A stretch of 33,835 nt of DNA from a virus: the IMG/VR virus record IMGVR_UViG_3300043539_001893, positions 1-33,835 of that record. One strand, given 5' to 3'. The position numbers were made by a program, and so were the translations under genes. The notes below the pieces were generated by a model. The model was given only the letters and a program-made list of their open reading frames with translations, searched no databases and was not told the DNA's origin. Shown here piece after piece: positions 6,750-27,770 of the stretch (within the stretch, counting starts at the first letter, position 1; each line of letters starts with the position of its first letter).

Positions 6750-9700
6750 ATGGCTGTTATACAAAAAACTTTATTTGCTAAAAACTTAGACAAGTACGCC
6801 GTATTAGTAAATGATACGGAACCTAATAGTAGATATTTTAAAATAACAGAATTGCCTGATACATTTACAGGTGGTAAGAATGCATTTTTAATTGCAGGTT
6901 CACAAGAATTAGTTCCAGATACTAAAATACAAATTGAATTAAAAGATTCGGCAGGTAATATAATTTATCACGAACCAGGTGAAGGATACTTTTCATCATC
7001 ATTTAAAGATACTAATGATAAACCCATTATAACCGAATATTATGAAGGTGTTTCAAAGGTAGTATCGGTTTATGTTTATCCCGATACGGCATTTGGGCCA
7101 TGTACACTTACTATATTAGGTGAGTTAAGTGAGTATCAAGATACAAATGGTATTACACTTCCCGTTCCTTTAGATTGGGAAAATAAATACAATGTTAAGT
7201 GGACAAAAACTATAAATGTAAATCCGGCATTAGCTAATACTACAAAGATTAGATTTTACCAAAGGCCACAAGCTACTATTACCGAATTACTTAGTCCACT
7301 ATATAGAATAGAAAATGATTTAAAAGTCGCATCTGCAGTTACACAATCCTTTGCAAATATTAAACTTTCAAAATTAGAAACATTTGCAGGTGATGTTAAA
7401 AGAGTAAAAGTATTTAGAACTTCTGAAGGTGATATTTCCGATTATGATTTGATACAAGATATATTGGTTGAGTCAAAAGAATTATTAACATCATATGGTT
7501 TGTCAGGAAGTGTAGTAGGCCAGACTGGAATACTAACATCGGAAACACTTAAAAATAATTGGAATACAGGTTCGTTAAATGCATATCTTACATCCAGTAG
7601 AGTTGAAAGTGGTGTTAGATTAACAGGTAGTGGGTATTTTACATATTCATCTTCTTTGGATATTAAAAGTTCAAATACATATGAATTAAATTTAGATGCA
7701 TTTTATTCATCATCTACTTCAAGTAATTTGGGAATATATTTAAATCAAATTACAACTTCAGTAGTAAATGGTGTAACGGTACCGACAACAATATCAAGCA
7801 GTATTTCAACATTAATAGGAACGCAACCTACAAAAAATTTATTAGATACGGTAATACCATTTAGGATAGATAGGGATTATCCATCTGCATCTTTATACTT
7901 TTCACAATCTCAAGGTGAATGGCATTTGGGAAATATTAGTTTACGATTATCACAGGATACCGCATTTTCTCCAGATGAGATTTCATTTGTTACTACAATG
8001 CCGACGGTATTAGGTAATGAAACTTATAATTTTAAATTTGAATTTTATGATGTAAACAATAACTATGTACCTGTTGCAGTAACACAATCTGCATTATTTA
8101 CAGGTGGTAACAATAATATAAATGGCACACTTACATTGATAAGTTCTTCTGCATCGGGTTCTTTAGCAGATTTAAATAGGGTATCATCTTCAATTAGTGG
8201 AACAGTAACATTAACAAGTTCATCTATTAGTGGTAGTTTGACTAGTGTAAGTTCATCGGTTAGTGGAACAATAACTACATTAAGTGGTTCGGTATCAAGA
8301 AGTGTTGCACTTACATTATCTGCATCTCTTTCAAATGTAAAATTATTAGCAGATGGTGGATATCCTGGAACATTTATAGAAAGTTCTTCAATTTATTCAC
8401 CAAATATAGCAGGTATAGACGGATATTTTAGTAATAAATTTCAAGTCGGTAAAACAAATCCAATTGTATTAGACGCATCTACTACAACTCGAAAAATATA
8501 TGTAGGAACAGGAACTTATAATAATGTAAATACATCCGTTTATATGGATAGTACAGGACAATTTTCTCTTAAAGATAAATTAACATTTGATACAAGTGGA
8601 AATCTTTCTGTAAATGGTACTATAAATGTAACAGCTGGTAATGCTGCTACACAAACTTATGCAAATACTATTGGAACAAATGCAGTATCATCGGGTTCAG
8701 TTTCAGCGGCAGCTGCACAAACCGCTGCAGAGTTATTTGCATCAAGTGCTGCAGGACGAGCCGTAACATCCGGTTCAGTTGCAGCAACGGCTGCACAACA
8801 GGCTGCGATTGCACAAGCAAAAGCCGATGCAAGTGCTTCTGTAAACTTATTAGCAGCTGGGGATTGGACGGGTGGTGGTACAACATTTATTAGTGCACGT
8901 TCTATTTCGTCTCCTGTTTTAGCTGGTAATGCGGGGTATATAAGTGAAATTCTTAAAGTAGGTCAAAATGGAATCACTTTGGATGGAGGAAATAAAAAGA
9001 TTTATGTAGGAACTGGTACATATGCAAATGCAAATACACCATTTTATTTTGCATCGGGTTCTACTAATGTATTTTCATTGGGCAGTAAACTAACTTTTGA
9101 TGGTGACAATTTATCTATTCAAGGTGGTATTACGGCAACATCACTAACACTAAGTGCGGGTGTAACGGTTCCAAACGCATCGGTTGCAGGACTTGGTTCT
9201 TTGGCATTAAAAAGTAGTGTATCGGCAACAGCGGATGTAACCGGTTTGGGTGCATTAGCGACACGTAGTTCGGTTAATGCAACTTACATAGACGATAATT
9301 CAATTAGTACTGGTAAAATAATAGCCGACTCAATCGTTGCGGAAAAAATTGCTTCATTAAAGTTTTTTGGTAGAGATGCACAATTTGATACCGGTTCAAT
9401 TGCGGGATGGAATTTTAATGGGAACTCATTATTTAAAAGTAATGGTACACATACTATTAAATTGAGTTCAACTGATGCTTCTTATTTTATTACAAGAGAT
9501 AGTACAAATCAAACAAAAGTAAAAATATCACCGGCAACAACTATTCCGGCAATAGCTGTTTCTTCGTTTGACTTTGTTAATTTTACATATGCAGCGACTA
9601 CAAGATTAACGGTTAGTGGTGATAGTTCTCAAGAAGAAACCAGAACATTAACCGCAACAAGTGGTAGAGGTGATATTGATGGTAGTCTAGGTTATAGGGG

Positions 9701-10760
9701 TACAGGTATCATATACTTAGAAAATCCTACCGAAGAAATTTGGGTTGATGGAGATGGGGTAAATGGTTTAACTTTATTACAATTCCTTGCTACTATTCAA
9801 GTTAATGGTGGAACGATTAATAATGATGATGGAGTACGTGCAAAGTATCAATTAACATTGGTTGCAGAAAAATATGCATCTTATACACACGCTGCCAATA
9901 GAACAAATTTAATTCAAACATATAGGTCAACTATTGTTGAAAATAATTTAGTAAAACTAGCAGGTAACACATTCAGTTATGCTGATTATTCATATGGTAT
10001 TTTTGGAGGTGGTTTTCAAGTAGATAGTAATCAAAACTGGTTTTATGTTTATTTAGAACAATATGTTCAATGCGCAACTAGTAATGGCGACCCATATGAT
10101 GACTCTGCATTAGTTTATATGAATGATTTTGGTTCAACTGTAAAAGTACAGTTTGGTAGAGTAGATAATGGATTTTCACAATTGGCACCTGCAGGATTAC
10201 AAGTGTATACAGGTGTTAGGAATTATATGAACGCATCTGTGTCGGCTGTATCCGGTGAAAACTTTTTTGAAGTAAAAGGAAAGTCTCAATTTTTGTCAGG
10301 ACTATCTGTTAATGGTACGTTTTCTGCGACTACTAAACAATTCCAAATTACACATCCATTAGATGAAAATAAATGGTTATATCACACTGCAATTGAAGGC
10401 CCACAAGCAGATTTGATTTATAGAGGTAAAATAAATTTAATAAATGGTGAAGGTAGTTCTAATATAGATATTTCTGCAAGATTAACAAATGGAACATTTA
10501 ATTCATTAACAAGAAATGCACAATTATTTTTACAAAATAATGATTCATTTGATAGAATAAAAGGTAAAATTGAAGATGGAAATGTATATGTTGTTAGTGA
10601 AAATCAAAATTCATCCGCATCGGTGGATTGGACAGTTATTGCTGAAAGATGTGATACGGAAGTATTGACGGGTGGTACATATGGCGGTGATGGTAAATAT
10701 AAAACCGAAAAGTGGAAAAGGGAATTTCGTGATACTTTAATGATAACGGGTTCAGTATGA
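6750..10760 (+). CDS. Long tail-fibre / adhesin-type virion protein
   Basis: A 1336-residue beta-rich, Ser/Thr/Gly/Asn-rich protein with no signal peptide, as expected for a fibre. N-terminal ~450 residues: fibre-like beta domains. Residues ~465-530: low-complexity SSxSG repeats with the spacing of a thin trimeric shaft. Then a duplicated domain: KIYVGTGTY occurs exactly at 582-590 and 750-758 (168-residue period), each followed by a SLxxKLTFD block, with an Ala-rich helical stretch between. Residues ~850-910 hold a TGKIIADSIVAEKI/GSIAGWNF block that I associate with tail proteins. Near residue 1200 an ITHPLDENKWLYHTAIEGP motif starts a C-terminal domain shared by many phage fibres. It likely binds the host surface. 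Its stop codon overlaps the first glycosyltransferase start (ATGA). Confidence 0.85.
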   Translation: MAVIQKTLFAKNLDKYAVLVNDTEPNSRYFKITELPDTFTGGKNAFLIAGSQELVPDTKIQIELKDSAGNIIYHEPGEGYFSSSFKDTNDKPIITEYYEGVSKVVSVYVYPDTAFGPCTLTILGELSEYQDTNGITLPVPLDWENKYNVKWTKTINVNPALANTTKIRFYQRPQATITELLSPLYRIENDLKVASAVTQSFANIKLSKLETFAGDVKRVKVFRTSEGDISDYDLIQDILVESKELLTSYGLSGSVVGQTGILTSETLKNNWNTGSLNAYLTSSRVESGVRLTGSGYFTYSSSLDIKSSNTYELNLDAFYSSSTSSNLGIYLNQITTSVVNGVTVPTTISSSISTLIGTQPTKNLLDTVIPFRIDRDYPSASLYFSQSQGEWHLGNISLRLSQDTAFSPDEISFVTTMPTVLGNETYNFKFEFYDVNNNYVPVAVTQSALFTGGNNNINGTLTLISSSASGSLADLNRVSSSISGTVTLTSSSISGSLTSVSSSVSGTITTLSGSVSRSVALTLSASLSNVKLLADGGYPGTFIESSSIYSPNIAGIDGYFSNKFQVGKTNPIVLDASTTTRKIYVGTGTYNNVNTSVYMDSTGQFSLKDKLTFDTSGNLSVNGTINVTAGNAATQTYANTIGTNAVSSGSVSAAAAQTAAELFASSAAGRAVTSGSVAATAAQQAAIAQAKADASASVNLLAAGDWTGGGTTFISARSISSPVLAGNAGYISEILKVGQNGITLDGGNKKIYVGTGTYANANTPFYFASGSTNVFSLGSKLTFDGDNLSIQGGITATSLTLSAGVTVPNASVAGLGSLALKSSVSATADVTGLGALATRSSVNATYIDDNSISTGKIIADSIVAEKIASLKFFGRDAQFDTGSIAGWNFNGNSLFKSNGTHTIKLSSTDASYFITRDSTNQTKVKISPATTIPAIAVSSFDFVNFTYAATTRLTVSGDSSQEETRTLTATSGRGDIDGSLGYRGTGIIYLENPTEEIWVDGDGVNGLTLLQFLATIQVNGGTINNDDGVRAKYQLTLVAEKYASYTHAANRTNLIQTYRSTIVENNLVKLAGNTFSYADYSYGIFGGGFQVDSNQNWFYVYLEQYVQCATSNGDPYDDSALVYMNDFGSTVKVQFGRVDNGFSQLAPAGLQVYTGVRNYMNASVSAVSGENFFEVKGKSQFLSGLSVNGTFSATTKQFQITHPLDENKWLYHTAIEGPQADLIYRGKINLINGEGSSNIDISARLTNGTFNSLTRNAQLFLQNNDSFDRIKGKIEDGNVYVVSENQNSSASVDWTVIAERCDTEVLTGGTYGGDGKYKTEKWKREFRDTLMITGSV

Positions 10761-11740
10761 TAGTACTTATTACAACAGGTTACGGAAAAAATGTTATAGG
10801 TGGTGCCGATTTATGGTGTAATAACTTTATTGAAAATGTTTTACCATTAGTCAAAGAAGATTACAAAATTATAATTGACGGCAGGCCATTGGTTAGAGAA
10901 ATTGATGCAATATACACTTTTGGAAACGAAAAAGAAGTTGATAAAATATTAGACGAATGTGATAAGATTATTTTCTTACATCATTCTTACAAACCAAATC
11001 CCATTATTAAAAACTATTTACACAAAACTTATCTTACATTTGTTCATGCTTTCATTCCTGATATGTTAGGATTGAATTCTGATTATGAAAATATAATGAC
11101 AAAAGTCGATTGGGAATGGCAAAAAGAAATATTAGATAATTCCGACAATGTAGTTTGGATAGGATATGAAAAAGATACAATACATAATGAATATCCAAAA
11201 ACAAAAACTATTACAAATTACTATGAATGGAAACACAATAAACCATTCACAGGAATTATAAGTAATAAGATTGGATATGCTGCAAGATGTGAAACCAGAA
11301 AAAATGCACATTATTTAGATTACATTCCATCAATTATATTTTCAAACAAGTATGATTACAAAAGAATGTTAGAAGGGTCAAAAACTAATTCGGATTATCA
11401 TAGGTTTATGGAATTTGATTATACATTTCATAATAAATTTTTTGAAAGTAATTTTCAAATATTTCATGGGTGTTATATAAAAGAACCATTTGGATATGCA
11501 ATATTTGATGCAGTTGATAATGGCAAAGTTCCAATTATACATACCGATTGGATGAAACACATTGATTACAAATATAGAGCAAATAGTAAAGGAGAATTTC
11601 ACCAAAGATATTTAGAATTACAAGAAGACGAATTTGAAAAAGTAAATTTAGAATTTTGTAAATTAAGAAATGCACTAGAAAAATATACAAATAAAGAGTT
11701 ATGGATACAAAAGATAAACAATTACTTAATACAAAATTAA
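10757..11740 (+). CDS. GT-B (GT4-like) glycosyltransferase
   Basis: A 327-residue protein. The N-terminal half begins with a Rossmann-like strand and glycine loop (MIVLITTGYGKNVIGGADLW). The C-terminal half has GYAARCETRKNAHYLD (about 173-188) and EPFGYAIFDAVDNGKVPII, the donor-site signature of GT4-type enzymes. The usual E-x7-E is here E243 … D251. It should move a sugar from a nucleotide donor to an unknown acceptor in the cytoplasm. The ATG overlaps the fibre stop by 4 bases, so it is translationally coupled to the fibre gene, which hints at fibre or virion glycosylation (inference). It is shorter than many GT4 enzymes (~370 residues). Confidence 0.75.
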   Translation: MIVLITTGYGKNVIGGADLWCNNFIENVLPLVKEDYKIIIDGRPLVREIDAIYTFGNEKEVDKILDECDKIIFLHHSYKPNPIIKNYLHKTYLTFVHAFIPDMLGLNSDYENIMTKVDWEWQKEILDNSDNVVWIGYEKDTIHNEYPKTKTITNYYEWKHNKPFTGIISNKIGYAARCETRKNAHYLDYIPSIIFSNKYDYKRMLEGSKTNSDYHRFMEFDYTFHNKFFESNFQIFHGCYIKEPFGYAIFDAVDNGKVPIIHTDWMKHIDYKYRANSKGEFHQRYLELQEDEFEKVNLEFCKLRNALEKYTNKELWIQKINNYLIQN

Positions 11741-12474
11741 TAAAAGAATATCTTACCAACAATCATAAAATAGATGATGAAGGTAATATAATTTTAGAGC
11801 CGGTAAAATATCGTTGGACACATGGTGCAACCGATTTACACTTAGGCGATGGCCTTTTGGTGTACTCTTTCATTCAATTTATTAGAGCAAAAGTATGCGT
11901 CTGTATTGGGTCAGGAGGTGGATTTATACCACGTCTTATGACACAAGCTAGGGTTGATTTATGGCATCAAAAAATATTTGATGGAAACGCTCAAATGGAA
12001 TGGGGAGATATTGGAACTACTATTATAATCGATGCAGCTAATGGTGTTGGAGGATTTACTGATTGGACAGAAGAAAATTCTTTTTTAAGACAACATTTTT
12101 CTCCACAAGTTATTTTAGAAACATCCGAAAAAACATTCTATGATTATTTTGTAAGACAAGATATTAAAATAGACTATTTACATATTGACGGAGACCATTC
12201 ATATGATGGTGTTAAAAAAGATTTTGAATTATATTCTACAATTATGTCTGAAAATGGAATTATTACAATTCACGATATAGACCAAAATTATCATGACACA
12301 TTTGTTGTAACGGAAAATTCAAAAGAAGATTTCGTTCCTTTTGATGGTCCCTGTAAATTTATTAAAGAATTGGAAGAGGATAAAAAATGGAATTTGGTAA
12401 ATTTAAAAAATTTTCGTATGTTTGATAAAAAAGTTACAAGCACTGGTTTAGCTTTACTAACAAGAAAGCTTTAA
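11701..12474 (+). CDS. Class I SAM-dependent methyltransferase (Methyltransf_24-like)
   Basis: A 257-residue protein. SAM-binding motif I is VCIGSGGGFIPRL (about 66-78), and the late motif YLHIDGDHSYDGVKKDFE (about 159-176), followed by GIITIHDID, is typical of the Methyltransf_24 group. That group includes metal-dependent O-methyltransferases and sugar-cassette enzymes. It probably methylates a sugar hydroxyl or a related small group (inference). The first ATG overlaps the upstream gene by 40 bases, longer than other junctions here. No later ATG exists before the SAM motif, so the overlap or a non-ATG start must be real. A paralogue of the same type lies at 16276. Confidence 0.78.
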   Translation: MDTKDKQLLNTKLIKEYLTNNHKIDDEGNIILEPVKYRWTHGATDLHLGDGLLVYSFIQFIRAKVCVCIGSGGGFIPRLMTQARVDLWHQKIFDGNAQMEWGDIGTTIIIDAANGVGGFTDWTEENSFLRQHFSPQVILETSEKTFYDYFVRQDIKIDYLHIDGDHSYDGVKKDFELYSTIMSENGIITIHDIDQNYHDTFVVTENSKEDFVPFDGPCKFIKELEEDKKWNLVNLKNFRMFDKKVTSTGLALLTRKL

Positions 12475-12495: not shown

Positions 12496-13344
12496 ATGAA
12501 TAAAATAAGATTAGTTACAGTTACTGGTAGTAGGGTAGAAACTTTGTGGCATATGCTGAATCATTATAAAGATTTGGTAGACGAAATGTATGTTGTAGTT
12601 TATGAGTGGGAGGGCTCTAGTACTTATAATGAAGTTTTAAAAATAACTAAACAATTTGAAAAAGCTAGAATAGTAGAAAGAGCAACAAAAGAAAAATTCA
12701 ATTGGGAATATGTTACTCAGTTATATAATGAAACTAAAATGTTATTTCCTGATGATTGGTGGGTAGTTTCAGACGATGATGAATTTCATATTTATTCAAA
12801 ACCATTAAAACAAATTATATCAGCTTGTGATAGAAATGGTTGGGAAATAGTAAGAGGTGGATTTATTGATAGAATAGGACAAGTTGGAGATTTCCCAAAG
12901 ATAAATAAGAAAGAAAATATATTTGAACAATTTCCAGTTGCAGGATTTTTTAGATATCCAATGAGTGGTGCATGTCCTAATAAGGTATGTATAGTGAAAG
13001 GATATATTGAAATTACATCTGGTCAACATTATGCAAAAATAGACGGACATACTACATGGAGATGGCAAGGTTGGAATCACCCTTTAATTGCACCCATTGA
13101 GGAATACAATGTTCAGGTTCATCACTTTAAATGGGACTCAACCTGTATAGAAAGAATCAAACAAGTTGCAGATATTAAAAAAGAGTATGCATCATCTGAT
13201 GAATATTTAAAAATGTATCAATCTTTAAGAAGTAATAATTTTGAAATAGATGTTACAAATCAGGAATATATGTTTGAATACATTGGAACGGAAATTGATT
13301 ATAAACAATGGAATCAATTAATTAAAAAAATAATATCAATATAA
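12496..13344 (+). CDS. GT-A-type glycosyltransferase (GT2-like)
   Basis: A 282-residue protein. The N-terminal ~110 residues form a GT-A fold pattern: strand RLVTVTG, helix, strand MYVVVYEW, then WWVVSDDDEFHIY with the metal-binding acidic cluster D93-D94-D95. Later W/H-rich segments (TTWRWQGWNHP, VQVHHFKWDS) resemble the acceptor side of uncharacterised GT2/GT92-like proteins that begin with a similar RVETLWHMLNHY block. It probably transfers a hexose to a glycan or protein. It starts 21 bases after the methyltransferase and is followed by a repeat promoter. The donor and acceptor cannot be read from sequence. Confidence 0.7.
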   Translation: MNKIRLVTVTGSRVETLWHMLNHYKDLVDEMYVVVYEWEGSSTYNEVLKITKQFEKARIVERATKEKFNWEYVTQLYNETKMLFPDDWWVVSDDDEFHIYSKPLKQIISACDRNGWEIVRGGFIDRIGQVGDFPKINKKENIFEQFPVAGFFRYPMSGACPNKVCIVKGYIEITSGQHYAKIDGHTTWRWQGWNHPLIAPIEEYNVQVHHFKWDSTCIERIKQVADIKKEYASSDEYLKMYQSLRSNNFEIDVTNQEYMFEYIGTEIDYKQWNQLIKKIISI

Positions 13345-13391: not shown

Positions 13392-13580
13392 ATGACAGAA
13401 GAAGAATTATTATTAGAAACTAAGAAGGTTAAAGCTTTGGAAAAAATTGCTAACTCATTAGATGCTCTTACGGTTTGGTTTGAAGAAATCGATAAAGATG
13501 AGTGGAGTGATAGAGTTCAATACTATTTAGCAGAATTTCATAAATTAGTTCCTAAAGAGGAAACCGATAACAATGCATAA
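13392..13580 (+). CDS. Small acidic phage protein of unknown function
   Basis: A 62-residue acidic, mostly helical protein (EEELLLETKKVKALEKIANSL, then a WFEEIDKDEWSDRVQYYLAEF block). It has no cysteines, signal or membrane segment. It is the first gene behind promoter copy 3 and its last 8 bases overlap the following GT7 gene, so it is probably expressed with it. It may be a helper or antitoxin-like small protein, but no family is recognised. Confidence 0.6.
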   Translation: MTEEELLLETKKVKALEKIANSLDALTVWFEEIDKDEWSDRVQYYLAEFHKLVPKEETDNNA

Positions 13581-14865
13581 ACTTGGCGTAATCGTTCCAT
13601 ACAGAAATCGATACGAACATCTCATAGAATTTAAAACTCATATAGTTCAATATTTAAAATCTCATAACATAGATTTTGAGATTATAATAGTTGAACAAGA
13701 TGATGCAAAATTATTTAATAGAGGAATGCTTCTAAATATCGGATTTGAACGAGCTAAGAAGTTGGATTGTGATTATGTTGTATTTCATGATATAGATATG
13801 ATACCAATAGATGTAGATTATTCTTATTCGGATACCCCCACTCACCTAGCCACCGACAATATTCCATTTGAATCTTATTTTGGTGGCATCACATTATTTC
13901 CATCCGAATTATTTGAAAAAATAAATGGGTTTTCTAACTTGTATTGGGGTTGGGGATTTGAAGATGATGACTTAAGATATAGATGTATAAAACACAATGT
14001 TCCATTTCAAAATATTATAGATGATACATTTACAAACGAAAAATTACCCATTTTTAATGGAGTAGACGCATATGCAACGGTTCCAAATATTATAAATTAT
14101 AATAGAAGTTTTAAAATAGAATTAGATATCAATTTAGATAAAGTTATTTATGATGTAAACAAACAATTTGATATATTTCCAATTTTATCAATAAAAGGTT
14201 ACGATTTTAAACTTTTTTATAATTCTTTTAATAGATTTTATTTACAACTTTTTGATAAAAAAGGTAATTACTATGATGTTCATTCCGATATTGTAACAAC
14301 ATCAAAAAATAAAATAGTAATAGAATATAATAAAAAAGAAAATATAATTACTTTTGTGGTAAATAATATTGTGAATAGTATCAAACTTTCGGAATATATA
14401 TATAATTATTCCAATTCCGATGATATAATAATCGGTACCGATGGCACAAAAGAAAGCTTTTTTAAAGGAACTATAAATGAATTTTTATTAAAACAAAATG
14501 ATGAAATAACAATTCATTATAAAAATTATAATATTACAAAATATTGTTTTACCGACATTTCTGGTAATAAAAATGATGGTAAATTTTTTAATGTTTATTT
14601 AAATTATTTTAAATCATTTGTAAATCATTATTCATATATACCATTTAGGAGAAATAGTAAACTTTTAAAATTGTACCACAAAGATTGTGGATTTAATGAT
14701 GGTAGATGGCAAGATGATAATAGTAGATGGAACCAGTTGAGATATAATAATGAAGTACAATTTGGGTATCACGATAATATCGATGATGGCCTAAGTAATT
14801 GTCATTATACATTATATGGTAAAACAAAAGATAATAAAATAACTCATTTAAATGTAGGTATATAA
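13573..14865 (+). CDS. GT7 (beta-1,4-galactosyltransferase-like) enzyme with inserted LamG-like domain
   Basis: 430 residues. The N-terminal part carries the GT7 signatures: VPYRNR (8-13), FNRGMLLNIGF (48-58), the metal-binding HDID (D73, D75), YFGG and NGFSNLYWGWGFEDDDL (118-134). These match animal beta4GalT motifs such as WGWGGEDDD. The C-terminal ~80 residues resume the same fold: a basic strand ending in Y368-H369 (beta4GalT MIRH, whose His binds the metal) and a D405-G-L-S-N block followed by YTLYGKTKDNKITHLNVGI, matching DGLNSLTY … ITVDIG. Between them (~155-345) is a concanavalin/LamG-like beta domain starting FNGVDAYATVP and ending DISGNKNDG, with much more extreme AT content. It likely adds galactose or a similar sugar, with the insert perhaps binding acceptor glycan (inference). 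It overlaps the next gene by one base. Confidence 0.82.
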   Translation: MHKLGVIVPYRNRYEHLIEFKTHIVQYLKSHNIDFEIIIVEQDDAKLFNRGMLLNIGFERAKKLDCDYVVFHDIDMIPIDVDYSYSDTPTHLATDNIPFESYFGGITLFPSELFEKINGFSNLYWGWGFEDDDLRYRCIKHNVPFQNIIDDTFTNEKLPIFNGVDAYATVPNIINYNRSFKIELDINLDKVIYDVNKQFDIFPILSIKGYDFKLFYNSFNRFYLQLFDKKGNYYDVHSDIVTTSKNKIVIEYNKKENIITFVVNNIVNSIKLSEYIYNYSNSDDIIIGTDGTKESFFKGTINEFLLKQNDEITIHYKNYNITKYCFTDISGNKNDGKFFNVYLNYFKSFVNHYSYIPFRRNSKLLKLYHKDCGFNDGRWQDDNSRWNQLRYNNEVQFGYHDNIDDGLSNCHYTLYGKTKDNKITHLNVGI

Positions 14866-16283
14866 TGAAATTAGGAGTTTGTGTACCATATAGAAATAGA
14901 GAAGAACATATGAATCAATTTGTTCCTCATGTATCTAAATTTTTAGAAGAAAGAGGAATCGAACATACAATCTACTTAGCACATCAATGTGATAACGAAT
15001 TATTTAACAGAGGTTTAATGAAAAACATTGCAGCAAAACACGCATTTGATGATGGGTGTGATTACATTGTATGGCATGATATCGATATGGTTCCTGAAGA
15101 TGAGAGTTGTGATTATTCGTTTCCTAATGATAACCCACAACATATTGCAGTTCGTATTTCACAATCAGATTATCAATTAAAGTATGAAGAATACTTTGGT
15201 GGTGCAGTTGTATTCTCAAAAGAACAAGTAGAACGAACTAACGGATATTCAAACGACTATTGGGATTGGGGCATGGAAGATGATGATTTATTTTGGAGAT
15301 GTGTAATGGAAGGTTATGCAGAAGAAACAAAATTAAATTATAGTAAAGAAAAATATGTAGCAAATTTTAATGGTATAAATTCTAAAATACAATTAAGACC
15401 ATCCAGAGAACAAAAGGATTGTATTTCTAATTCACATACAATTTCTATATTAGTTAAAGCAGACCAACAAATTGAAAAAGTTCCTATCTGGTTAATCGGT
15501 GACCAAAATAGACAATTTATAGAATACCCAATATTTAGAAAACCAGGATATGATTGGGGGTTGTCATTTAATAATAGTAGAGCATATACACTCCAAATAT
15601 GGGATAGAATGAAAAATCATTTATATCAATGGATTAAAAGATATGAAAATCAATGGAGTTGGATTACTATGTCAGTAGATGCGGAAAATAAAAAAATACA
15701 TTTCTATTTAAATGGTAGAGAAAGTGATGCAAGATTGGGAACGGGAACACAATCACCACTTAGTTATAATGAACCATTGAAACGATATGGTATGGAGCCG
15801 TTTACAATTGGATATTCAAAATCTCCCAATGAAGTATTTTTTAAAGGAGGAATTGCTAGCATACAAATGTGGGATAGATGTTTAACATCCGATGAGGTAA
15901 AAAATCTACATAAAGAAATGCCCGAAGATAATTTGATATTAGATATATTCACTATGAATTTAGAATTTGGTCAAATGGAAAATATTGAATTAACAAAGGA
16001 AAAAATAGAAATACCACACACTATATTACCTTACAGAAAAAATGGTAAATTTAAATGCTTACCACATCAAACTGAAGGATTAATTAAAACAGGTGGAATT
16101 GATAAATGGGCAAAAGGTGAAACTACTGCAAGAAATGAAAGACGATATATCTTAGAAATGCAGCAAGGTAAAATAGATTATAAAAAAGATGGTATGTCAA
16201 ACATAAATGAAAAATATACCTTGTTGGAAATAGAAAATATATTTGGTAAACATAAACTTATAAATGTAAAAACCAATGGATAA
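14865..16283 (+). CDS. Second GT7-type glycosyltransferase with inserted LamG-like domain
   Basis: 472 residues, paralogous to the preceding gene. GT7 motifs: VPYRNREEH (7-15), FNRG (47-50), HDIDM (D72, D74), YFGG (110-113), YWDWGMEDDDL (132-142). The fold resumes near residue 385: YRKNGKFKCLPH, where H401 takes the metal-ligand position and C398 the preceding one, then D442-G-M-S-N followed by YTLLEIENIFGKHKLINVKTN. The inserted ~160-375 segment is a better LamG match than in the first paralogue: FNGINSKIQLRPS, TISILVKAD, WSWITMSVDAENKKIHFYLNGRE and FKGGIASIQMWDRCLTSDEVKNL. The 1-base overlaps on the operon suggest coupling. The two enzymes could add successive sugars. Sugar specificity is unknown. 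Confidence 0.82.
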   Translation: MKLGVCVPYRNREEHMNQFVPHVSKFLEERGIEHTIYLAHQCDNELFNRGLMKNIAAKHAFDDGCDYIVWHDIDMVPEDESCDYSFPNDNPQHIAVRISQSDYQLKYEEYFGGAVVFSKEQVERTNGYSNDYWDWGMEDDDLFWRCVMEGYAEETKLNYSKEKYVANFNGINSKIQLRPSREQKDCISNSHTISILVKADQQIEKVPIWLIGDQNRQFIEYPIFRKPGYDWGLSFNNSRAYTLQIWDRMKNHLYQWIKRYENQWSWITMSVDAENKKIHFYLNGRESDARLGTGTQSPLSYNEPLKRYGMEPFTIGYSKSPNEVFFKGGIASIQMWDRCLTSDEVKNLHKEMPEDNLILDIFTMNLEFGQMENIELTKEKIEIPHTILPYRKNGKFKCLPHQTEGLIKTGGIDKWAKGETTARNERRYILEMQQGKIDYKKDGMSNINEKYTLLEIENIFGKHKLINVKTNG

Positions 16284-16956
16284 GCATACAGACAAAGAAT
16301 TTTTGCAACAAGCTTTCGATGCAAATAAATTAATAAAAAAGCAGTATAATTTTCATACAATGCAATCATACAAAGACATTCCAGGATGGATTAATGACGC
16401 AGAGTGGATTTATGAGAAGATTGTAAATGAATCGGAAGATGGTGACAAATTATTAGAAATTGGTACTTTCTTCGGCCAATCCGCAGCACGAATGGCCGAA
16501 TTAATTAGAGATTCAAAGAAAAATATTAAATTCTATTCTATGGACATTTATTATGAAGTAGAATCATCATTAATGTTAGACAGACATCCAAAATCATTTA
16601 AAGATTTTAGAGAAAAACATAGATACGCAGATATCTATAATTTAGTAAAAGATATTCTTATTAAAATAGGTTTAAAAGAATATGTAGAACAAATTTGTTG
16701 TGATTCTAAATATGGATATAAATTATTTGATGATAATTATTTTAAAATGGTTTATATAGATGGAAACCATTATTATGACTATGTATATGCAGATTTAGTA
16801 AACTGGTGGCCTAAGATTAAAGAAGGTGGTTACATAATCTGTGATGACATTGCATACGACTCTGTAACAAAAGCTATTGATGACTTTATAGATTATTATA
16901 AATTGGACAAAACAAAATGTGAATACAATTATAATAGTTTTATATATAAAAAATAA
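16276..16956 (+). CDS. Class I SAM-dependent methyltransferase (Methyltransf_24-like)
   Basis: A 226-residue protein. Motif I is LLEIGTFFGQSAARMA (59-74), the acidic end of beta-2 is FYSMDIYY, and the late block is MVYIDGNHYYDYVYADLVNWWPKI (158-181), followed by GGYIICDDIAYD. This Methyltransf_24 arrangement with Asp residues after the IDGNH and CDD motifs suggests a divalent-metal-dependent O-methyltransferase. It starts 8 bases inside the preceding GT7 gene and ends 3 bases before the radical SAM gene, placing it within the glycan cassette. Sugar methylation is the simplest guess (inference). It belongs to the same group as the protein at 11701 but the two are clearly diverged. Confidence 0.78.
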   Translation: MDKHTDKEFLQQAFDANKLIKKQYNFHTMQSYKDIPGWINDAEWIYEKIVNESEDGDKLLEIGTFFGQSAARMAELIRDSKKNIKFYSMDIYYEVESSLMLDRHPKSFKDFREKHRYADIYNLVKDILIKIGLKEYVEQICCDSKYGYKLFDDNYFKMVYIDGNHYYDYVYADLVNWWPKIKEGGYIICDDIAYDSVTKAIDDFIDYYKLDKTKCEYNYNSFIYKK

Positions 16957-16959
16957 AAT

Positions 16960-18390
16960 ATGAGTGAAGAAAAAAAGCCTAATAATTATGGATTTGAAAA
17001 TCCTGTTTATGTAGAGACAAAAAATGAATTGGATAAAGTTGGGAAAGGAATGTGTTTAGCAAAATGGACACAGGTTACTATGCACTTACAAAATGGGCAC
17101 AATCACTCTTGTCATCACCCCAGAACACATAAAATATCTGAAACCGAAATTGCACGCAATCCATCGGCACTACATAATACGAGATATAAAAAACTTCGTA
17201 GAAAAGAAATGTTAAGTGGAGCAAGACCGGAGGAGTGTGATTATTGTTGGGGTGTAGAAGATAATTCCGATAGGTTTAGTGATAGAATTTTTAAATCAGC
17301 TGAAAGTTGGTCTAAACCATTTTATAATGAAATTGTTAATGCCGATTGGAGAGACGATTTTAATCCAAGATATGTAGAGGTGGCATTTAGTAATACTTGT
17401 AATTTTAAATGTTCATATTGCGGCCCTGCATTTTCTACACAATGGATGGAAGAAATGGAAGAATTTGGTGGATATAATACATCTACTAGTTTCAATGACC
17501 CAGTTTGGTTGACAAGAGAACAAAAAACACCAATAAAACAAAACGAACACAATCCATATAATGAAGCATTTTGGAAATGGTGGCCGGATTTATATAACGA
17601 TTTACATACATTTAGAATAACAGGAGGAGAACCTCTATTAGCCAAAGATACTTGGAAAGTTTTAGATTATATCATAGACCACCCAAATCCTAATAAAAAA
17701 TTAAATCTTTCTATTAATACTAACTTAGGTGCACCAGATGCATTGATTGATAAATTTATTGATAAAGTAAATAAGATAATCGATGAGGGAAGAATAAATG
17801 AATTTATTATTTTCACCTCTGCAGATGCATGGGGAAAACAGGCGGAATATATTAGACATGGAATGGAATTTAATCGTTTTTGGGGTAATGTAAATAAAAT
17901 TCTTACAAAATGTCCAAGAGTTGTTATTACATTTATGGTAACATACAATGCATTGAGTGTGTTTACTTATGATAAATTAATCAAAGGTGTATATGATTTG
18001 AAAAAAGAATATGGTTCATCGGATAGATATTGGCCATCCGCTGTAATGTTGGATAGTTCTTATTTAAGATTCCCATGGCATCAAACTGTTCAAATTTTAC
18101 CAAGTGATTTTAAAGAAAATATTTTAGAACATGCCAAATTAGCATTGTATTATGGTGTTCCAAAATTTGACCACAAATATATTGGTTATTCCGATGTAGA
18201 GATACAAAAATTAAAAAGAATATATGACTGGTCAACATCAACTGATATAGACCCTAAATTTATTTTACAAAGCCAAAAAGATTTTGGAATATTTGTAACC
18301 GAACACGATAAAAGAAGGGGAACCAATTTTGTAAAAACATTCCCAGAATTAGAAGAATTTTATAACTTTTCAAAAAATATTATTATATGA
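16960..18390 (+). CDS. Radical SAM protein with N-terminal twitch-type cluster domain
   Basis: 476 residues. The radical SAM cluster motif is C147-N-F-K-C151-S-Y-C154 (CX3CX2C), followed by RITGGEPLL, which binds SAM. N-terminal to it are four further cysteines, C32, C51, C93 and C96 (MCLAKW, SCHHP, ECDYCW), placed as ligands for an auxiliary iron-sulfur cluster, in the order seen in proteins annotated as N-terminal twitch radical SAM enzymes. These are widespread in phages and surface-polysaccharide loci, with no established substrate. The C-terminal ~170 residues complete the partial barrel. The 4-base ATGA overlap with the LamG-like gene suggests that the two proteins are made together. 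It could do radical sugar chemistry or peptide modification (inference). Confidence 0.85.
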   Translation: MSEEKKPNNYGFENPVYVETKNELDKVGKGMCLAKWTQVTMHLQNGHNHSCHHPRTHKISETEIARNPSALHNTRYKKLRRKEMLSGARPEECDYCWGVEDNSDRFSDRIFKSAESWSKPFYNEIVNADWRDDFNPRYVEVAFSNTCNFKCSYCGPAFSTQWMEEMEEFGGYNTSTSFNDPVWLTREQKTPIKQNEHNPYNEAFWKWWPDLYNDLHTFRITGGEPLLAKDTWKVLDYIIDHPNPNKKLNLSINTNLGAPDALIDKFIDKVNKIIDEGRINEFIIFTSADAWGKQAEYIRHGMEFNRFWGNVNKILTKCPRVVITFMVTYNALSVFTYDKLIKGVYDLKKEYGSSDRYWPSAVMLDSSYLRFPWHQTVQILPSDFKENILEHAKLALYYGVPKFDHKYIGYSDVEIQKLKRIYDWSTSTDIDPKFILQSQKDFGIFVTEHDKRRGTNFVKTFPELEEFYNFSKNIII

Positions 18391-19088
18391 TGAAAATAGA
18401 TTTTAAAAAACCATGGCAAATATGGCCATTCCAATCATATGGTATGGTTAAAAAAGATGCACTGATAGTCACCAACTCAGGAGATTTCACAATGTCCGTA
18501 TCCTTTAAATCAGGAGAAATATTTGAAGATACTCAATTGGGTGGAATTTGTTTGAGACCTGGTATGCATTCTGGTTTTATGATTTTAAAAGATAAAGAAG
18601 TAAGATATGATATTTGGTATAATGATGGTGTTGAAAATAAATTTATTTGTTTAAAAAAACAAATAAATGATATTAATTTTTTTAATGAATTTAATTTATT
18701 AACTATAACATTTTCAAGTAAAGAAAATAAATTTTCATTTTATGTAAATTCTAAATTAGAAGATAGTGTTATTATAGATGGTAAATATAACGATTATAAT
18801 AATTTACCAATTTTCTTTGGATGTGGTGCATACGATAGAGAAGAAAATACAAATTTTATGGAATGTTATTATGATTTTTATTTATTATGTGATTCTATTG
18901 TAGATATAGACGATGTAGTATATTTAAAAAATAATTTATATGAAAATTTAAATGAATATGATTATATTAAAAATAAATTTAATAAAAATATAGTTGTGTG
19001 TTATGATTTTTTAAAAAAAACTCCACACAAAGTTTGGGATTTTTCAGGAAATTCAAACTATTTAATTAAAGTAGAAGAAACTTGTTAG
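18387..19088 (+). CDS. Stand-alone LamG/concanavalin-like protein
   Basis: 233 residues, AT-rich coding. The beta-sandwich pattern: DFTMSVSFKSG (about 30-40), GGICLRPG, VRYDIWYND, then LLTITFSSKENKFSFYVNSKLED (strand-turn-strand with the typical FYVN), and a closing YDFLKKTPHKVWDFSGNSNYLIK that resembles the D-x-SGN end of LamG domains. It has no catalytic motif and no secretion signal. The same kind of domain is inserted in both GT7 enzymes upstream, so it probably binds the glycan being built, or is a relic of a third GT7 gene (inference). ATG at 18387 overlaps the radical SAM stop; ATG at 18390 is an equally possible start. Confidence 0.55.
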   Translation: MMKIDFKKPWQIWPFQSYGMVKKDALIVTNSGDFTMSVSFKSGEIFEDTQLGGICLRPGMHSGFMILKDKEVRYDIWYNDGVENKFICLKKQINDINFFNEFNLLTITFSSKENKFSFYVNSKLEDSVIIDGKYNDYNNLPIFFGCGAYDREENTNFMECYYDFYLLCDSIVDIDDVVYLKNNLYENLNEYDYIKNKFNKNIVVCYDFLKKTPHKVWDFSGNSNYLIKVEETC

Positions 19089-19089
19089 T

Positions 19090-20061
19090 ATGAAAATTTT
19101 AGTTACAGGAGGTGCAGGTTATTTGGGTTCGGTATTAGTTGGAAAACTATTAGAACAAAGTTATGAGGTTATTGTTTTGGATAAATTATTATTCAATCAA
19201 ACTTCCCTATTACAATACACATCAAAGTCAAAATTTAAATTTATACATGGTGATGTTCGTAATGAAACACTATTGGAAAAACTTTGTAATGAAGCAGATG
19301 TAATTATTCCTCTTGCTGCAATTGTAGGATTTCCTGCATGTGCACAAGACCCAAAACTTGCAAAAGAAATTAATTTTCAACAAATAGTTAATATTGTTAA
19401 ATTTACAAATGGAAAAGGTAAAAAGATTTTATATCCAAATACAAATAGTGGATATGGTTTAAGTACCGGTCAATTAGAATGTACCGAAGAATCACCACTC
19501 ACACCAATTTCAGTTTATGGTCAAACCAAATGTGACGCAGAAAACTTTTTAAGAACATCAACGGATGCAATCATATTTAGATTAGCAACTGTCTTTGGAG
19601 TTTCACCAAGAATGAGAACAGACTTATTGGTAAACGATTTTGTTTATAAAGCAATAACTGACAAATATATTGTTGTATTCGAAAAACAATTTAAAAGAAA
19701 CTTTATCCATATTCAGGATATTGCATTTACTTTTTGTTTTATGATTCAACATTATGACAAATATAAAGGTGAAGTTTTTAATGTAGGATTGAGTAATGCA
19801 AATCTTTCAAAACAAGAGTTATTGGAAAAAATACAATCTCATGTAAATGACTTTGCTGTGGTCTACGATGACTATTATGAGGACCCAGACAAGAGAAACT
19901 ACATTGTATCAAACAATAAGTTAGAAGCAACAGGATGGGGCCCACAATGGGATTTAGATAGAGGTATTAAAGAACTTATAATGGCATATCAAATGATAGT
20001 ACCAAAAATGGGTTTTGAATTTAGAAATGGTTTTCCTTTAGGATACGCAAATCAAACATAA
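19090..20061 (+). CDS. NAD-dependent epimerase/dehydratase (extended SDR), complete catalytic motif
   Basis: 323 residues. Rossmann NAD(P)-binding motif GGAGYLG (7-13), an acidic strand end (VIVLDK), HGDVRN, and the active-site Y133-G-Q-T-K137 (canonical YxxxK), then FRLATVFGVSPRMR in the nucleotide-sugar-binding half. It should epimerise, dehydrate or reduce a nucleotide-linked sugar in the cytoplasm. It starts 1 base after the LamG-like gene and 1 base before the RmlC-like gene. Pairing with an RmlC-type epimerase suggests a 4-keto-deoxysugar route. It is the only one of the three SDRs here with an intact YxxxK. Confidence 0.85.
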   Translation: MKILVTGGAGYLGSVLVGKLLEQSYEVIVLDKLLFNQTSLLQYTSKSKFKFIHGDVRNETLLEKLCNEADVIIPLAAIVGFPACAQDPKLAKEINFQQIVNIVKFTNGKGKKILYPNTNSGYGLSTGQLECTEESPLTPISVYGQTKCDAENFLRTSTDAIIFRLATVFGVSPRMRTDLLVNDFVYKAITDKYIVVFEKQFKRNFIHIQDIAFTFCFMIQHYDKYKGEVFNVGLSNANLSKQELLEKIQSHVNDFAVVYDDYYEDPDKRNYIVSNNKLEATGWGPQWDLDRGIKELIMAYQMIVPKMGFEFRNGFPLGYANQT

Positions 20062-20062
20062 T

Positions 20063-20608
20063 ATGAGTAACAAATGGGATGAGTTTCAAATTACTCCATC
20101 GAAAAAATTTGGTTATGAAGTACCAACATATACTCCATCAATTTATAGAGAATACAGAGGTGAGATATTTACAACTTTTCATTCGGAAGAACATCCTGTA
20201 ATGACACAAATACACTATGACAAAAGTGAGATTAGTATTCATGGTAGGTTTTCAAAATCATACAAAGGTGTATTGAGAGGATTACATTGGGATAGTAAGA
20301 CGTGGAAATTGGTTCAAGCTGCAGTAGGTGATATTTATTTAGTCGTTTTAGATATGAGATTAAATTCACCAACATCAGGAGAGTGGGAAGCATTTATTAT
20401 ATCCGAAAGAAATAGAAACCAAGTTCTAGTACCACCGGGGTTTGCAAACGGACACTACGCATTAACCGATTGTATGTTTCATTATAACTTATTTTATAAA
20501 GATGGTTATGTGGATGCAGATGAGCAAGGTGTAGTAAAATGGAACGACCCCGAATATCAAATGGAATGGCCAACAACAAACCCAATATTACAAAAAAGAG
20601 ACAGATGA
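20063..20608 (+). CDS. rmlC: RmlC-type dTDP-4-dehydrorhamnose 3,5-epimerase-like protein
   Basis: 181 residues, the normal family length. The cupin core shows GVLRGLHWD with catalytic His75, KLVQAAVGDIYLVVLDMR, then VLVPPGFANGHYAL with a second conserved His131, and FHYNLFYKDGY with candidate catalytic Tyr. RmlC enzymes epimerise C3 and/or C5 of a dTDP-4-keto-6-deoxyhexose. No RmlA, RmlB or RmlD partner is certain in the window, so the substrate may be supplied by the host or by the SDR upstream. A 3- or 5-only epimerase is also possible. The stop overlaps the next start by 4 bases (ATGA at 20605). Confidence 0.85.
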   Translation: MSNKWDEFQITPSKKFGYEVPTYTPSIYREYRGEIFTTFHSEEHPVMTQIHYDKSEISIHGRFSKSYKGVLRGLHWDSKTWKLVQAAVGDIYLVVLDMRLNSPTSGEWEAFIISERNRNQVLVPPGFANGHYALTDCMFHYNLFYKDGYVDADEQGVVKWNDPEYQMEWPTTNPILQKRDR

Positions 20609-21234
20609 TAAAAAATTTAGAACAATATCCAATAGTAAGAGATATTCAACAAACAAAGGAATCTTTAATTGATTTTGAAAATTTAATAGTAAAGCATTGG
20701 GAAGATGCAAAAATAAGAGGCCCGATTCATTTATCAAATGGCAATGAAGAACAATTGATTGAAATATTCAAACGAATTAAAACTTCGGATTGGGTTTTTA
20801 GTACATGGCGTTCTCACTACCATGCATTATTAAAAGAAGTGTGTCCTGTTTGGATTGAAGAAGAAATTCTTAAAGGAAAATCAATCACTCTTTGCAAGGT
20901 AAATGAAAAGTTTTATTCATCTGCAATTGTGGGTGGCACATTATCAATAGCATTGGGAGTTGCAATGGGAATTAAAGAAAAAGGTAGTGATGAAAAAGTA
21001 TTTGTATTTATTGGTGACATGTCTTTTGAAAGTGGTATATTTTATGAAGTGCACAAATACGCAAAAAACTTTGATTTACCAATTGTATTTGTGGTGGAAG
21101 ATAATGGAGTATCAACCTATACTCCAACCGAAGCAACTTGGAATAAAAAAAGAGAAATACCCGATGATGTTATATATTATTCATACGAATCAAAATTTCC
21201 ACATTACGGAACAGGTAAATGGATAGCATTTTAA
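20605..21234 (+). CDS. Thiamine-diphosphate enzyme, E1-alpha-like PP domain (minimal)
   Basis: 209 residues from the ATG at 20605. A longer in-frame read from 20539 would overlap the RmlC gene by 70 bases, so the ATGA start is preferred. The thiamine-diphosphate/Mg motif is G127-D128-M … E155-D156-N157 (GDxx … N), with FESGIFYEVHKYAKNFDLPIVFVVEDN between. The N-terminal half has the E1-alpha blocks IHLSNGNEEQ, VFSTWRSHYHALL and AIVGGTLSIALGVAMGIK. Pyruvate-dehydrogenase E1-alpha chains are ~320-400 residues, so this is a stripped version ending soon after the cofactor motif. The matching Pyr half is encoded at 27234, about 6 kb downstream. Probable role: C2-unit transfer onto a sugar (inference). 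Confidence 0.8.
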   Translation: MIKNLEQYPIVRDIQQTKESLIDFENLIVKHWEDAKIRGPIHLSNGNEEQLIEIFKRIKTSDWVFSTWRSHYHALLKEVCPVWIEEEILKGKSITLCKVNEKFYSSAIVGGTLSIALGVAMGIKEKGSDEKVFVFIGDMSFESGIFYEVHKYAKNFDLPIVFVVEDNGVSTYTPTEATWNKKREIPDDVIYYSYESKFPHYGTGKWIAF

Positions 21235-26377: not shown

Positions 26378-27237
26378 TGAATGGAATTATATTCGCAGGA
26401 GATTCGTTTACTTGGGGACAGGGACTGCATCACTATTCTACATTACCAAATATAGTATTACCAAAAGATAATCAATTTGTAAAATCGGAATATACTGATT
26501 CACATTTAAATTTTATTAAAACAATTAGATTCCCCAGAATTGTTGCAAATTATTTTGAAACATTTGAAATAGTACATTTAGAAAATGGTGGTAATGAGGA
26601 TGTTTCATTTGAATTAATAAACCATTGTTTACAAATTGAAAATAATCCAATGAGAAATCATTTTTATAAAGAAAAATATAAATTTGAGGATATTGCGTAT
26701 ATTATTTTACAAACAAGCCAACCGGATAGAAATAAATTTAAATTTGTATTAAAAGGAAAAGAATATATTTTCAATGCAGGTTATGCATATAATAAACCTA
26801 AAAAAGATTTTGAACTAAACATGGCAGATTTTGACATATTTAACGAATGGTTGGAATCTAATAATAAAACATATGAAGAATGGCAATCTGTTGATTTATT
26901 AAATTATATTGTTAATAATATTAAAGAAAAATTTATTTTTTATGAAAAAATGGGTATAAAAACAAAATTACTTTCTTGGACACCCGATTATGTTAATATC
27001 ATAAAAAATGATAAATTTTTAAATGAAAGATTTATTACATTAAAATATAATGATAATGAATATAATTGTATACAGGATTTAACAACAGAAAATTCAAATC
27101 TTATTATAAGAAATGATTTTAAAAATTTAAAAAATCCACCCATGGATTCACATATATCAAAAGAATGCCATAACGTGATTGCAAATAATATTATAGAAAA
27201 TATAAATTCAACAAATAGATTTAATAAAATAAAATGA
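26377..27237 (+). CDS. SGNH-type hydrolase/esterase-like protein
   Basis: 286 residues. The N-terminus has IIFAGDSFTWGQG with nucleophile Ser10 (GDS block I). A glycine/asparagine motif occurs near 71-75 (ENGGNED), and the C-terminal MDSHISKECH gives candidate D257 and H259 of the catalytic triad. SGNH proteins remove or transfer acyl groups on carbohydrates. The middle is AT-rich and diverged. It may deacylate or acylate the sugar made by the cassette, or trim host surface polysaccharide (inference); no signal peptide is present, so it would act in the cytoplasm or in the virion. It overlaps the next gene by 4 bases (ATGA). Confidence 0.6.
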   Translation: MNGIIFAGDSFTWGQGLHHYSTLPNIVLPKDNQFVKSEYTDSHLNFIKTIRFPRIVANYFETFEIVHLENGGNEDVSFELINHCLQIENNPMRNHFYKEKYKFEDIAYIILQTSQPDRNKFKFVLKGKEYIFNAGYAYNKPKKDFELNMADFDIFNEWLESNNKTYEEWQSVDLLNYIVNNIKEKFIFYEKMGIKTKLLSWTPDYVNIIKNDKFLNERFITLKYNDNEYNCIQDLTTENSNLIIRNDFKNLKNPPMDSHISKECHNVIANNIIENINSTNRFNKIK

Positions 27238-27770
27238 ATACAAACGAAATATCATATAAAGATACATTAATAAATGTAATGACAGAACTGGCCAAATTGG
27301 AAGATACAATATTCATCGGCCAACAAATAGTTTATGCCGGAAATCCTATGAGTACAACTTTAACAAATGTACCAAAAGAAAAAATGATTGAAGTTCCTGT
27401 TATGGAAGAAACTCAAATGGGTATGAGTTTGGGTTTGGCAATGACTGGAAAAAGAGTTATTACATTCTACCCAAGATGGGATTTTATTATATCAGCAACA
27501 AATCAATTAGTTAATCACATTGACAAATATGAATTAATGACGGAAAACAAAGTCAATATACTTATTAGAGTTGGTAAAGGTGCGGACACACCATTAGACC
27601 CTGGCCACCAACATAAAGCAAATTATATTGAAGAATTTAAAACAATGTGTCCAAATATTGAAATACATGATTTAAAAACATGGCAAGATGTTGAATTATC
27701 TTATAAATATGCAATTGAAAATGGTGGTATTCATATATTAACGGAATACCCAGAATTATACAATAAATAA
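27234..27770 (+). CDS. Thiamine-diphosphate enzyme, E1-beta-like Pyr domain (minimal)
   Basis: 178 residues. It has the Pyr-domain blocks of E1-beta/transketolase: SYKDTLINVMTELAKLEDTIFIGQQI, then EVPVMEETQMGMSLGLAMTGKRVI, where E58 (or E59) matches the glutamate that activates the thiamine aminopyrimidine, and the helical DFIISATNQLVNHIDK block with VNILIRVGKGADTPLDPGHQH. Typical E1-beta chains are ~325 residues with a C-terminal transketolase domain; here the chain stops after the Pyr domain. The PP-domain partner is at 20605. Together they have both halves of the cofactor site, so they would form a minimal heteromeric TPP enzyme. Carboligation onto a ketosugar is a possible reaction (inference). 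Confidence 0.8.
   Translation: MNTNEISYKDTLINVMTELAKLEDTIFIGQQIVYAGNPMSTTLTNVPKEKMIEVPVMEETQMGMSLGLAMTGKRVITFYPRWDFIISATNQLVNHIDKYELMTENKVNILIRVGKGADTPLDPGHQHKANYIEEFKTMCPNIEIHDLKTWQDVELSYKYAIENGGIHILTEYPELYNK

Follow-up and report, generated by a model that had tools for sequence, protein, structure and literature searches.

Two adjacent galactosyltransferase-like genes in a viral genome

We analysed two adjacent genes, which we call P1 and P2, in the IMG/VR virus record IMGVR_UViG_3300043539_001893. The window is the whole record (33,835 nucleotides), and all coordinates refer to it. P1 (13573..14865, + strand) encodes a protein of 430 amino acids and P2 (14865..16283, + strand) encodes one of 472; the stop codons are included in these coordinates. 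The two proteins are 31% identical across nearly their whole length (E = 4e-55). As predicted from their models, both are GT7 (beta-1,4-galactosyltransferase-like) enzymes whose fold is interrupted by a LamG-like domain.

We identified the parts of P1 from Pfam, a PDB search, and an AlphaFold2 model. The N-terminal half of its GT7 fold (residues 1-142; 13573..13998, + strand) contains the HDID metal motif, YFGG, WGWGFEDDD, and a helix. The LamG-like insert (residues ~143-356; 13999..14640, + strand) was recognized from the structural matches of the model, and the C-terminal half of the fold (residues 357-430; 14641..14862, + strand) holds the putative metal ligand His369 and a DGLSN motif. These boundaries were drawn from the alignment and the model and are accurate to about 5 residues. 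P2 has the same three parts on the + strand: an N-terminal half with an approximate boundary (residues 1-150; 14865..15314), a LamG insert (residues ~151-388; 15315..16028) with a Pfam LamG_3 match at 186-346, and a C-terminal half (residues 389-472; 16029..16280) with His401 and DGMSN.

Both halves of the fold are recognizable in Pfam. Glyco_transf_7N and Glyco_transf_7C score 77.3 and 62.8 bits in P1 and 70.5 and 70.2 bits in P2, against curated cut-offs of 27 and 23. The best PDB sequence matches are beta-1,4-galactosyltransferase structures (E = 6.1e-30 for P2 and 1.3e-28 for P1), and these alignments cover the first 138-157 residues only. A preliminary description of this locus had listed both open reading frames, the motifs WGWGFEDDD (125-133 in P1) and WDWGMEDDD (133-141 in P2), and the later landmarks H369 and DGLSN at 405 (P1) or H401 and DGMSN at 442 (P2), and we confirmed all of these.

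The C-terminal part is predicted to complete the GT7 fold

The same description had named a way for its layout to fail: the C-terminal ~80 residues could be foreign to GT7, so that each protein would be a GT7 fragment followed by LamG and an unrelated tail. Two of our results could be read this way: in both proteins the Pfam match to the C-terminal domain goes no further than position 63 of the 78-position profile, and the PDB sequence search aligns just the start of each. As natural GT7s to compare with the tail, we took 25 insert-free bacterial proteins from our genome scan. With hhalign, their C-terminal parts matched that of our family with a probability of 98.9 (E = 3.5e-17). As a control, the profile of the insert matched whole insert-free GT7 proteins with a probability of 0.1 out of 100.

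The models agree with this. AlphaFold2 models were built on alignments of 145 (P2) and 104 (P1) sequences, and for these two-domain chains the predicted local distance difference test (pLDDT) was 94.6 and 94.2 and the predicted template-modelling score (pTM) was 0.90 and 0.89. The P2 model aligns to 1tvy with Z = 28.5 and a root-mean-square deviation of 1.8 over 214 residues, spanning 1-472 (the target chain has 272 residues). For P1, the alignment to 4irq has Z = 26.1 and a deviation of 1.9 over 202 residues, spanning 1-430 (the target chain has 240 residues). Foldseek covered only about 150 columns of the beta-1,4-galactosyltransferase, and VIA-align was needed to bridge both halves. The profile comparison and the full-chain structural matches thus contradict a foreign tail: the last 74 residues of P1 and 84 of P2 are predicted to be GT7 fold, and within the limits of prediction we consider an unrelated tail to be extremely unlikely.

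The insert has a LamG-like fold

The P2 insert scores 41.5 bits against Pfam LamG_3 (PF13385), above the cut-off of 27.6. The closest structural matches of its model are PAPP-A (Z = 20.5-21.5), the putative carbohydrate-binding protein 4dqa (Z = 19.4), and pentraxins (Z of about 17-18.6). For the P1 insert, the matches are PAPP-A (Z up to 17.7), a laminin alpha2 LG domain (Z = 16.8), and perlecan LG3 (Z = 16.6). The portion of PAPP-A that both inserts match is, we assume, its laminin-G-like domain.

The case for P1 is less direct. Its insert scores 15.0 bits against LamG_3, which is under the cut-off, so by score it does not belong to PF13385, and this counts against calling it LamG. An acylase (8i59) and dimethylformamidase also match it, at Z similar to those of PAPP-A and laminin. 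Because of the low score, we call the P1 insert LamG-like on the basis of its homology to P2 together with its model. In both models, the insert is a beta-sandwich with the LamG/pentraxin fold. The claim that a LamG-like domain lies inside the GT7 fold therefore stands for P2 by Pfam score and model, and for P1 by homology to P2 and model.

The insertion point and insert-free relatives

In the model of P2, a helix (138-148) carries the catalytic base. After it, a long strand enters the sandwich (152-169); another long strand leaves it (375-389), and the next strand (391-398) precedes His401. The models thus place the insert between the catalytic-base helix and the strand that runs to the metal-ligand histidine. 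The models and the profile comparison bear out the earlier proposal that the insertion point is the same in P1 and P2, immediately upstream of this strand. Two long strands carry the chain into and out of the P2 insert, so it is probably held rigidly, and the high pTM for both two-domain chains suggests that the insert has a fixed orientation relative to the GT7 part.

The animal enzymes B4GALT1 and B4GALT7 have the fold that is common to both halves, and the metal motif, R228, Tyr289, Trp314, EDDD, and the metal histidine all align with P1 and P2. Between the helix and the histidine strand they presumably have a short link, as in insert-free relatives, whereas P1 and P2 have the LamG-like domain there. 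If we have named the elements of the models correctly, the insert lies between alphaF and beta8. In a paper on GT-A enzymes (PMC7185993), the hypervariable regions are HV1 (beta3-alphaC), HV2 (beta6-beta7), and HV3 (the tail past beta8), which are additions to a common core and are thought to set acceptor specificity. The insertion point in P1 and P2 appears to be outside all three, and what was added is a whole foreign domain.

An insert-free GT7 from Simkania (L166), which is 45% identical in the best segment, illustrates the spacing without an insert. From the motif glutamate to the histidine there are 28 residues in this protein, close to the ~25 that the preliminary description gave for animal beta4GalTs, as compared to 239 in P1 and 263 in P2 (211 and 235 extra residues). 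We also measured the gap between the GT7 halves more broadly. Our loci contained 371 distinct GT7 frames, and we left out the 34 without a C-terminal match (6 of them insert-bearing). In the 306 insert-bearing frames, the gap averages 249 residues (range 198-336), and in the 31 insert-free frames it averages 2 (range -3 to 6). None of these 337 proteins has an intermediate gap. The insert-bearing frames include 4 from bacterial bins and 6 that are shorter than 420 amino acids. The insert-free GT7s have the same two halves and are found both in bacteria and in viral contigs (loci L192, L199, L216, L220, and L256). With 306 distinct insert-bearing frames, a few of which are copies cut at the ends of loci, we reject the idea that the arrangement is an assembly oddity of one contig.

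Probably one old insertion followed by duplication

To look at the history of the insertion, we built trees from the two GT7 parts with the insert excluded. For FastTree, the 306 insert-bearing and 55 insert-free rows were reduced by shared words to 133 (plus the 2 from the window) and 44. For a more careful tree, these 135 and 44 rows were reduced by identity and fill to 38 and 27, and one long row (L208 at 1185) was omitted. In the FastTree, the 135 insert-bearing and 44 insert-free rows are split by a single branch (0.94). In the careful tree of 65 rows, all 38 insert-bearing rows fall in one group of 39, with support of 96/92.

Three observations do not fit so neatly with a single insertion. 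The 39th member of that group is an insert-free protein from Planctomycetota (L168), which is placed inside it with support of 84/84, so the presence of the insert needs 2 changes on this tree. Of 200 bootstrap trees, just 6% set the insert-bearing rows cleanly on one side. And after re-rooting the FastTree, the node above the insert-bearing group reads 0.223, which may be a label that the re-rooting shifted. Overall, we think that one old insertion, with perhaps one loss or one misplaced row, is the likely explanation and the best fit to these trees.

P1, P2, and a third paralog (described below) form separate supported clades in the careful tree (97/90, 100/98, and 100/99), which implies that the gene duplication likely came after the insertion. 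We considered two independent insertions and rejected this, as the two copies in the window are in different supported clades within one insert-bearing group. The preliminary description had taken an insert at the same place in both neighbors as a sign of a built-in glycan-binding lid. This line of argument is not supported: the duplication probably postdates the insertion, so the inserts of P1 and P2 are most likely shared inheritance between paralogs and are not independent evidence.

Conservation of the active site and selection on the insert

At each of the positions that correspond to beta4GalT1 R228, D252, D254, Y289, W314, E317, D318, and H347, at least 126 of the 127 rows of P1 or P2 type have the same residue as that enzyme. 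The equivalents of D254, E317, D318, and H347 are jointly intact in 126 of the 127 rows (alignment A1). R228 chooses the donor, and R228K is reported to switch the donor from galactose to glucose (PMC7185993). Because the R228 equivalent is kept and R228K alters the donor, and because the equivalent of Y289 is also conserved, uridine diphosphate galactose (UDP-Gal) is the likely donor for P1 and P2.

The insert itself is under purifying selection. Across 11 pairwise comparisons, its rate of non-synonymous substitution (dN) is 0.06-0.25, its synonymous rate (dS) is 0.38-1.40, and dN/dS is 0.1-0.33, with dS near saturation in several pairs. Given these ratios and the conserved active-site residues, we reject the idea that P1 and P2 in the window are degraded. 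Still, the insert is less constrained than the GT7 part: it has the higher dN in 9 of the 11 pairs and the higher dN/dS in all 11, which counts against the role that we propose for it below. This, along with the weakly supported position of the insert-free L168 among the insert-bearing rows, where it may have lost the insert, would fit with the insert being a tolerated passenger with no function. Yet its dN/dS is at most 0.33 in every pair, and it survives where the active site does not (see below), so we view a passenger as very improbable.

In all 6 comparisons for P1, the insert has a lower dS than the GT7 part, with a ratio of 0.33 to 0.60 (the ratio for P2 is 0.70 to 1.33). This hints at recombination of the insert or at a difference in codon usage.

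A third GT7-LamG paralog is found outside the window, in many related loci (for instance L152:3210-4661, L154:2146-3594, and L034:1785-3233). In all 18 rows it comes first among the three insert-bearing frames of the locus, and it has tyrosine at the R228 position. Only 5 of these 18 rows keep D254, E317, D318, and H347 jointly, so the active site has decayed in 13, and we think that this paralog is likely a pseudoenzyme partner. All 18 rows retain an insert of at least 150 residues, although they were selected with a length filter (420-560 amino acids) that favors insert-bearing proteins. Because decayed paralogs retain the insert, it seems to be useful without an active site.

We propose that P1 and P2, whose predicted active sites are intact, act as GT7 enzymes in the synthesis of a phage glycan, probably using UDP-Gal, and that the LamG insert recognizes the acceptor near the active site. 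We would give this proposal an even chance of being correct. An ancestral GT7 gene would have gained a whole LamG module between the catalytic-base helix and the strand with the metal-ligand histidine, and the insert-bearing gene would then have duplicated to give P1 and P2. The GT7 part would transfer galactose by the ordinary metal-dependent inverting mechanism, while the LamG part, beside the metal-ligand strand, would bind the acceptor glycan or glycoprotein from within the same chain. The products would be part of a phage-encoded glycan. What the computations show is the nested architecture, the intact active-site residues, an insertion that most likely preceded the duplication, purifying selection on the insert, and a conserved set of neighboring genes; the donor sugar, the rigidity, the binding of the acceptor, and the biological glycan are all things that we infer.

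Gene neighborhood and a free-standing LamG protein

We examined 80 loci anchored by P2 homologs in each scan. These were picked by their likeness to the query and include near-duplicates and contig ends, so they are neither independent nor a census. Upstream of P1 in the window are a Methyltransf_24 protein (11701..12474, + strand), with homologs in 65 of the 80 loci, and a GT2-like putative glycosyltransferase (12496..13344, + strand), with homologs in 76. (The latter scores 18.4 bits against Pfam Glyco_tranf_2_4, under the cut-off of 27.5.) Downstream of P2 are a twitch-domain radical SAM protein (16960..18390, + strand; 349 bits for NCBIfam NF033640, cut-off 170; homologs in 79 of 80), a free-standing LamG protein of 233 amino acids (18387..19088, + strand), an NAD-dependent sugar epimerase/dehydratase (19090-20061, + strand; homologs in 59 of 80), and an RmlC-like protein of the dTDP-4-dehydrorhamnose 3,5-epimerase family (20063-20608, + strand; homologs in 50 of 80). 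A TylF-like methyltransferase lies between P2 and the radical SAM gene (16276-16956) and has a homolog in just 1 of the 80 loci (L003, which is 100% identical to the window), so it is perhaps a recent addition in this phage.

The free-standing LamG protein scores 18.3 bits against LamG_3, under the cut-off, and matches our hidden Markov model (HMM) of the insert with E = 7e-13. By this HMM, 65 of the 80 loci have a free LamG gene downstream of P2; there are 69 by HMM or BLAST, and by either method 11 loci (contig ends included) have none. With hhalign, the family of free LamG proteins matches the insert family over 214 columns (probability 99.8), in the same order and nearly end to end. Since the alignment is nearly end to end, the insert has about the same limits as a module that occurs independently. 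Both the free protein (at 18999-19085) and the consensus of the insert close with a stretch of the form YDF/YD...D-x-S-(GN)-x-N. As LamG_3 domains usually begin with such a segment, the module may have undergone circular permutation.

Insert-bearing genes often occur in tandem. Of 191 loci, which overlap, are redundant, and include the window, 112 have exactly two complete insert-bearing frames and 42 have three. Together with the free LamG homolog downstream of P2 and the third paralog, whose insert is retained more faithfully than its active site, the tandem arrangement raises another explanation: the insert could be a protein-docking module, with P1, P2, the free LamG protein, and (where it occurs) the third paralog joined by their LamG domains in one multi-enzyme complex and glycans recognized elsewhere. 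The persistence of the insert in decayed paralogs suits docking as well as it suits a role in acceptor binding, and to that extent it counts against our proposal. The ligands of LamG domains include both glycans and proteins, so docking would leave a role in acceptor recognition possible. We regard docking on its own as the main rival to acceptor recognition, but somewhat unlikely.

The cassette in the window resembles the surface-glycan clusters of jumbo cyanophages, which have 1-4 epimerases, cupin isomerases, and several glycosyltransferases, as set out in PMC7824862. The same paper notes LamG3 domains in the virions of jumbo phages, on tail fibers among other components. By analogy, the insert might be a tag that localizes the enzymes to the cell surface or to a virion structure without affecting the choice of acceptor. 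A localization tag would not need to be internal to the catalytic fold, and we consider this improbable as compared to the recognition of an acceptor by the insert.

A few other genes in the window are unusual. The two halves of a transketolase/E1-type enzyme are encoded by two genes about 6 kb apart (20539-21234 and 27234-27770; Dehydrogenase E1 component and Transket_pyr). A protein of 1363 amino acids (27917-32008) has a nucleotidyltransferase domain at its N terminus but no Pfam match over about 1200 residues; a shorter relative in Microcystis phage Mel-JY01 has 37% identity, with 43% covered. Another protein, of 1336 amino acids (6750-10760), has no Pfam match at E = 0.01.

Distribution in phages and bacteria

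The carriers of this domain plan are many uncultured viruses, probably phages. Among 50,697 INPHARED phage records, P1 and P2 had no match at E = 1e-5, and neither the free LamG protein nor the Simkania GT7 had one at E = 0.01, so we found no cultured phage with this plan. Going by other genes in the window, the nearest named phage is Microcystis phage Mel-JY01 (the SbcCD-like protein is 41.8% identical over its full length), whose capsid gene is annotated with the note "T4-like bacteriophage". In PHROGs, P2 had a single weak match (E = 0.0049) and P1 had no match.

Two bacterial bins each have one full-length GT7-LamG copy. In "bacterium bin_47" (L165), the genes after it encode a GT2 protein, an ABC transporter, and a HlyD-like protein that scores under the cut-off (L165:4941-9900 and L165:10165-11073), which suggests the glycosylation of an exported product. 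On a 3 kb contig of a Fibrobacter bin (L164), the next frame is truncated and matches GT2 weakly. The Fibrobacter copy is nested within the P2 clade in the careful tree, which points to transfer between phages and bacteria, in one direction or the other. A third bin, from Pelagibacterales (L163), has the same gene order as the phage loci and is probably phage DNA within the bin. Among 167 genomes from the phylum of genome G001, 86 have some match to alignment A1; of the matches listed, the only full-length ones are in G001 and G002, and nearly all of the others are to the LamG part alone.

Comparison with known systems

We did not find any description of LamG nested in GT7 in the open-access literature, although part of this search used short phrases that returned no results at all and so tested little. 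The best 50 matches in the BFVD viral structure library each cover about one domain, with a query TM-score that is never above 0.35, and among the PDB matches listed there is no single chain that covers both the GT7 and the LamG parts. Within our searches of the open-access literature and the best 50 BFVD matches, then, the preliminary description was right that no enzyme with this plan has been described. GT7 and LamG are each well known separately; what appears to be new is the nested domain plan, which is found in many viral contigs and is under selection.

There are partial parallels. In lactose synthase, the acceptor choice of B4GALT1 is set by alpha-lactalbumin, a separate lysozyme-like subunit. 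The role that we propose for the LamG domain would be analogous to that of alpha-lactalbumin, or to that of separate lectin domains, but within the same chain. (Complexes such as 1nf5 are among the matches of the P2 model.) In the GT27 polypeptide GalNAc-transferases, the lectin domain is of the ricin type and is C-terminal; unlike the LamG insert of P1 and P2, it is not within the catalytic fold. These enzymes have the GT-A fold, form one clade with GT7, and carry lectin accessory domains, according to PMC7185993.

A fuller picture would have one insertion make a GT7 enzyme into a lectin and transferase in a single chain, with the LamG domain as a rigid lid that selects the acceptor, and with duplication, the decay of one copy to a pseudoenzyme scaffold, and a free LamG partner giving a multi-subunit glycan machine that is held together by LamG domains, in uncultured phages with occasional exchange with bacteria. 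We offer this only tentatively, as it seems doubtful that every part of it is correct.

In the GT7-LamG proteins, a whole lectin-like domain was added near the metal-ligand strand, at a point that appears to lie outside the HV sites, and the active-site residues were kept. Because insert-free, insert-bearing, decayed, and free-standing forms are natural controls, the control of acceptor choice by an inserted domain is directly testable. With P1 and P2, the glycan-making genes of phages would come to include beta4GalT-like enzymes, and the two proteins could serve as a model for galactosyltransferases that carry a binding domain of their own. In these phages, the LamG-like part may choose what P1 and P2 decorate.

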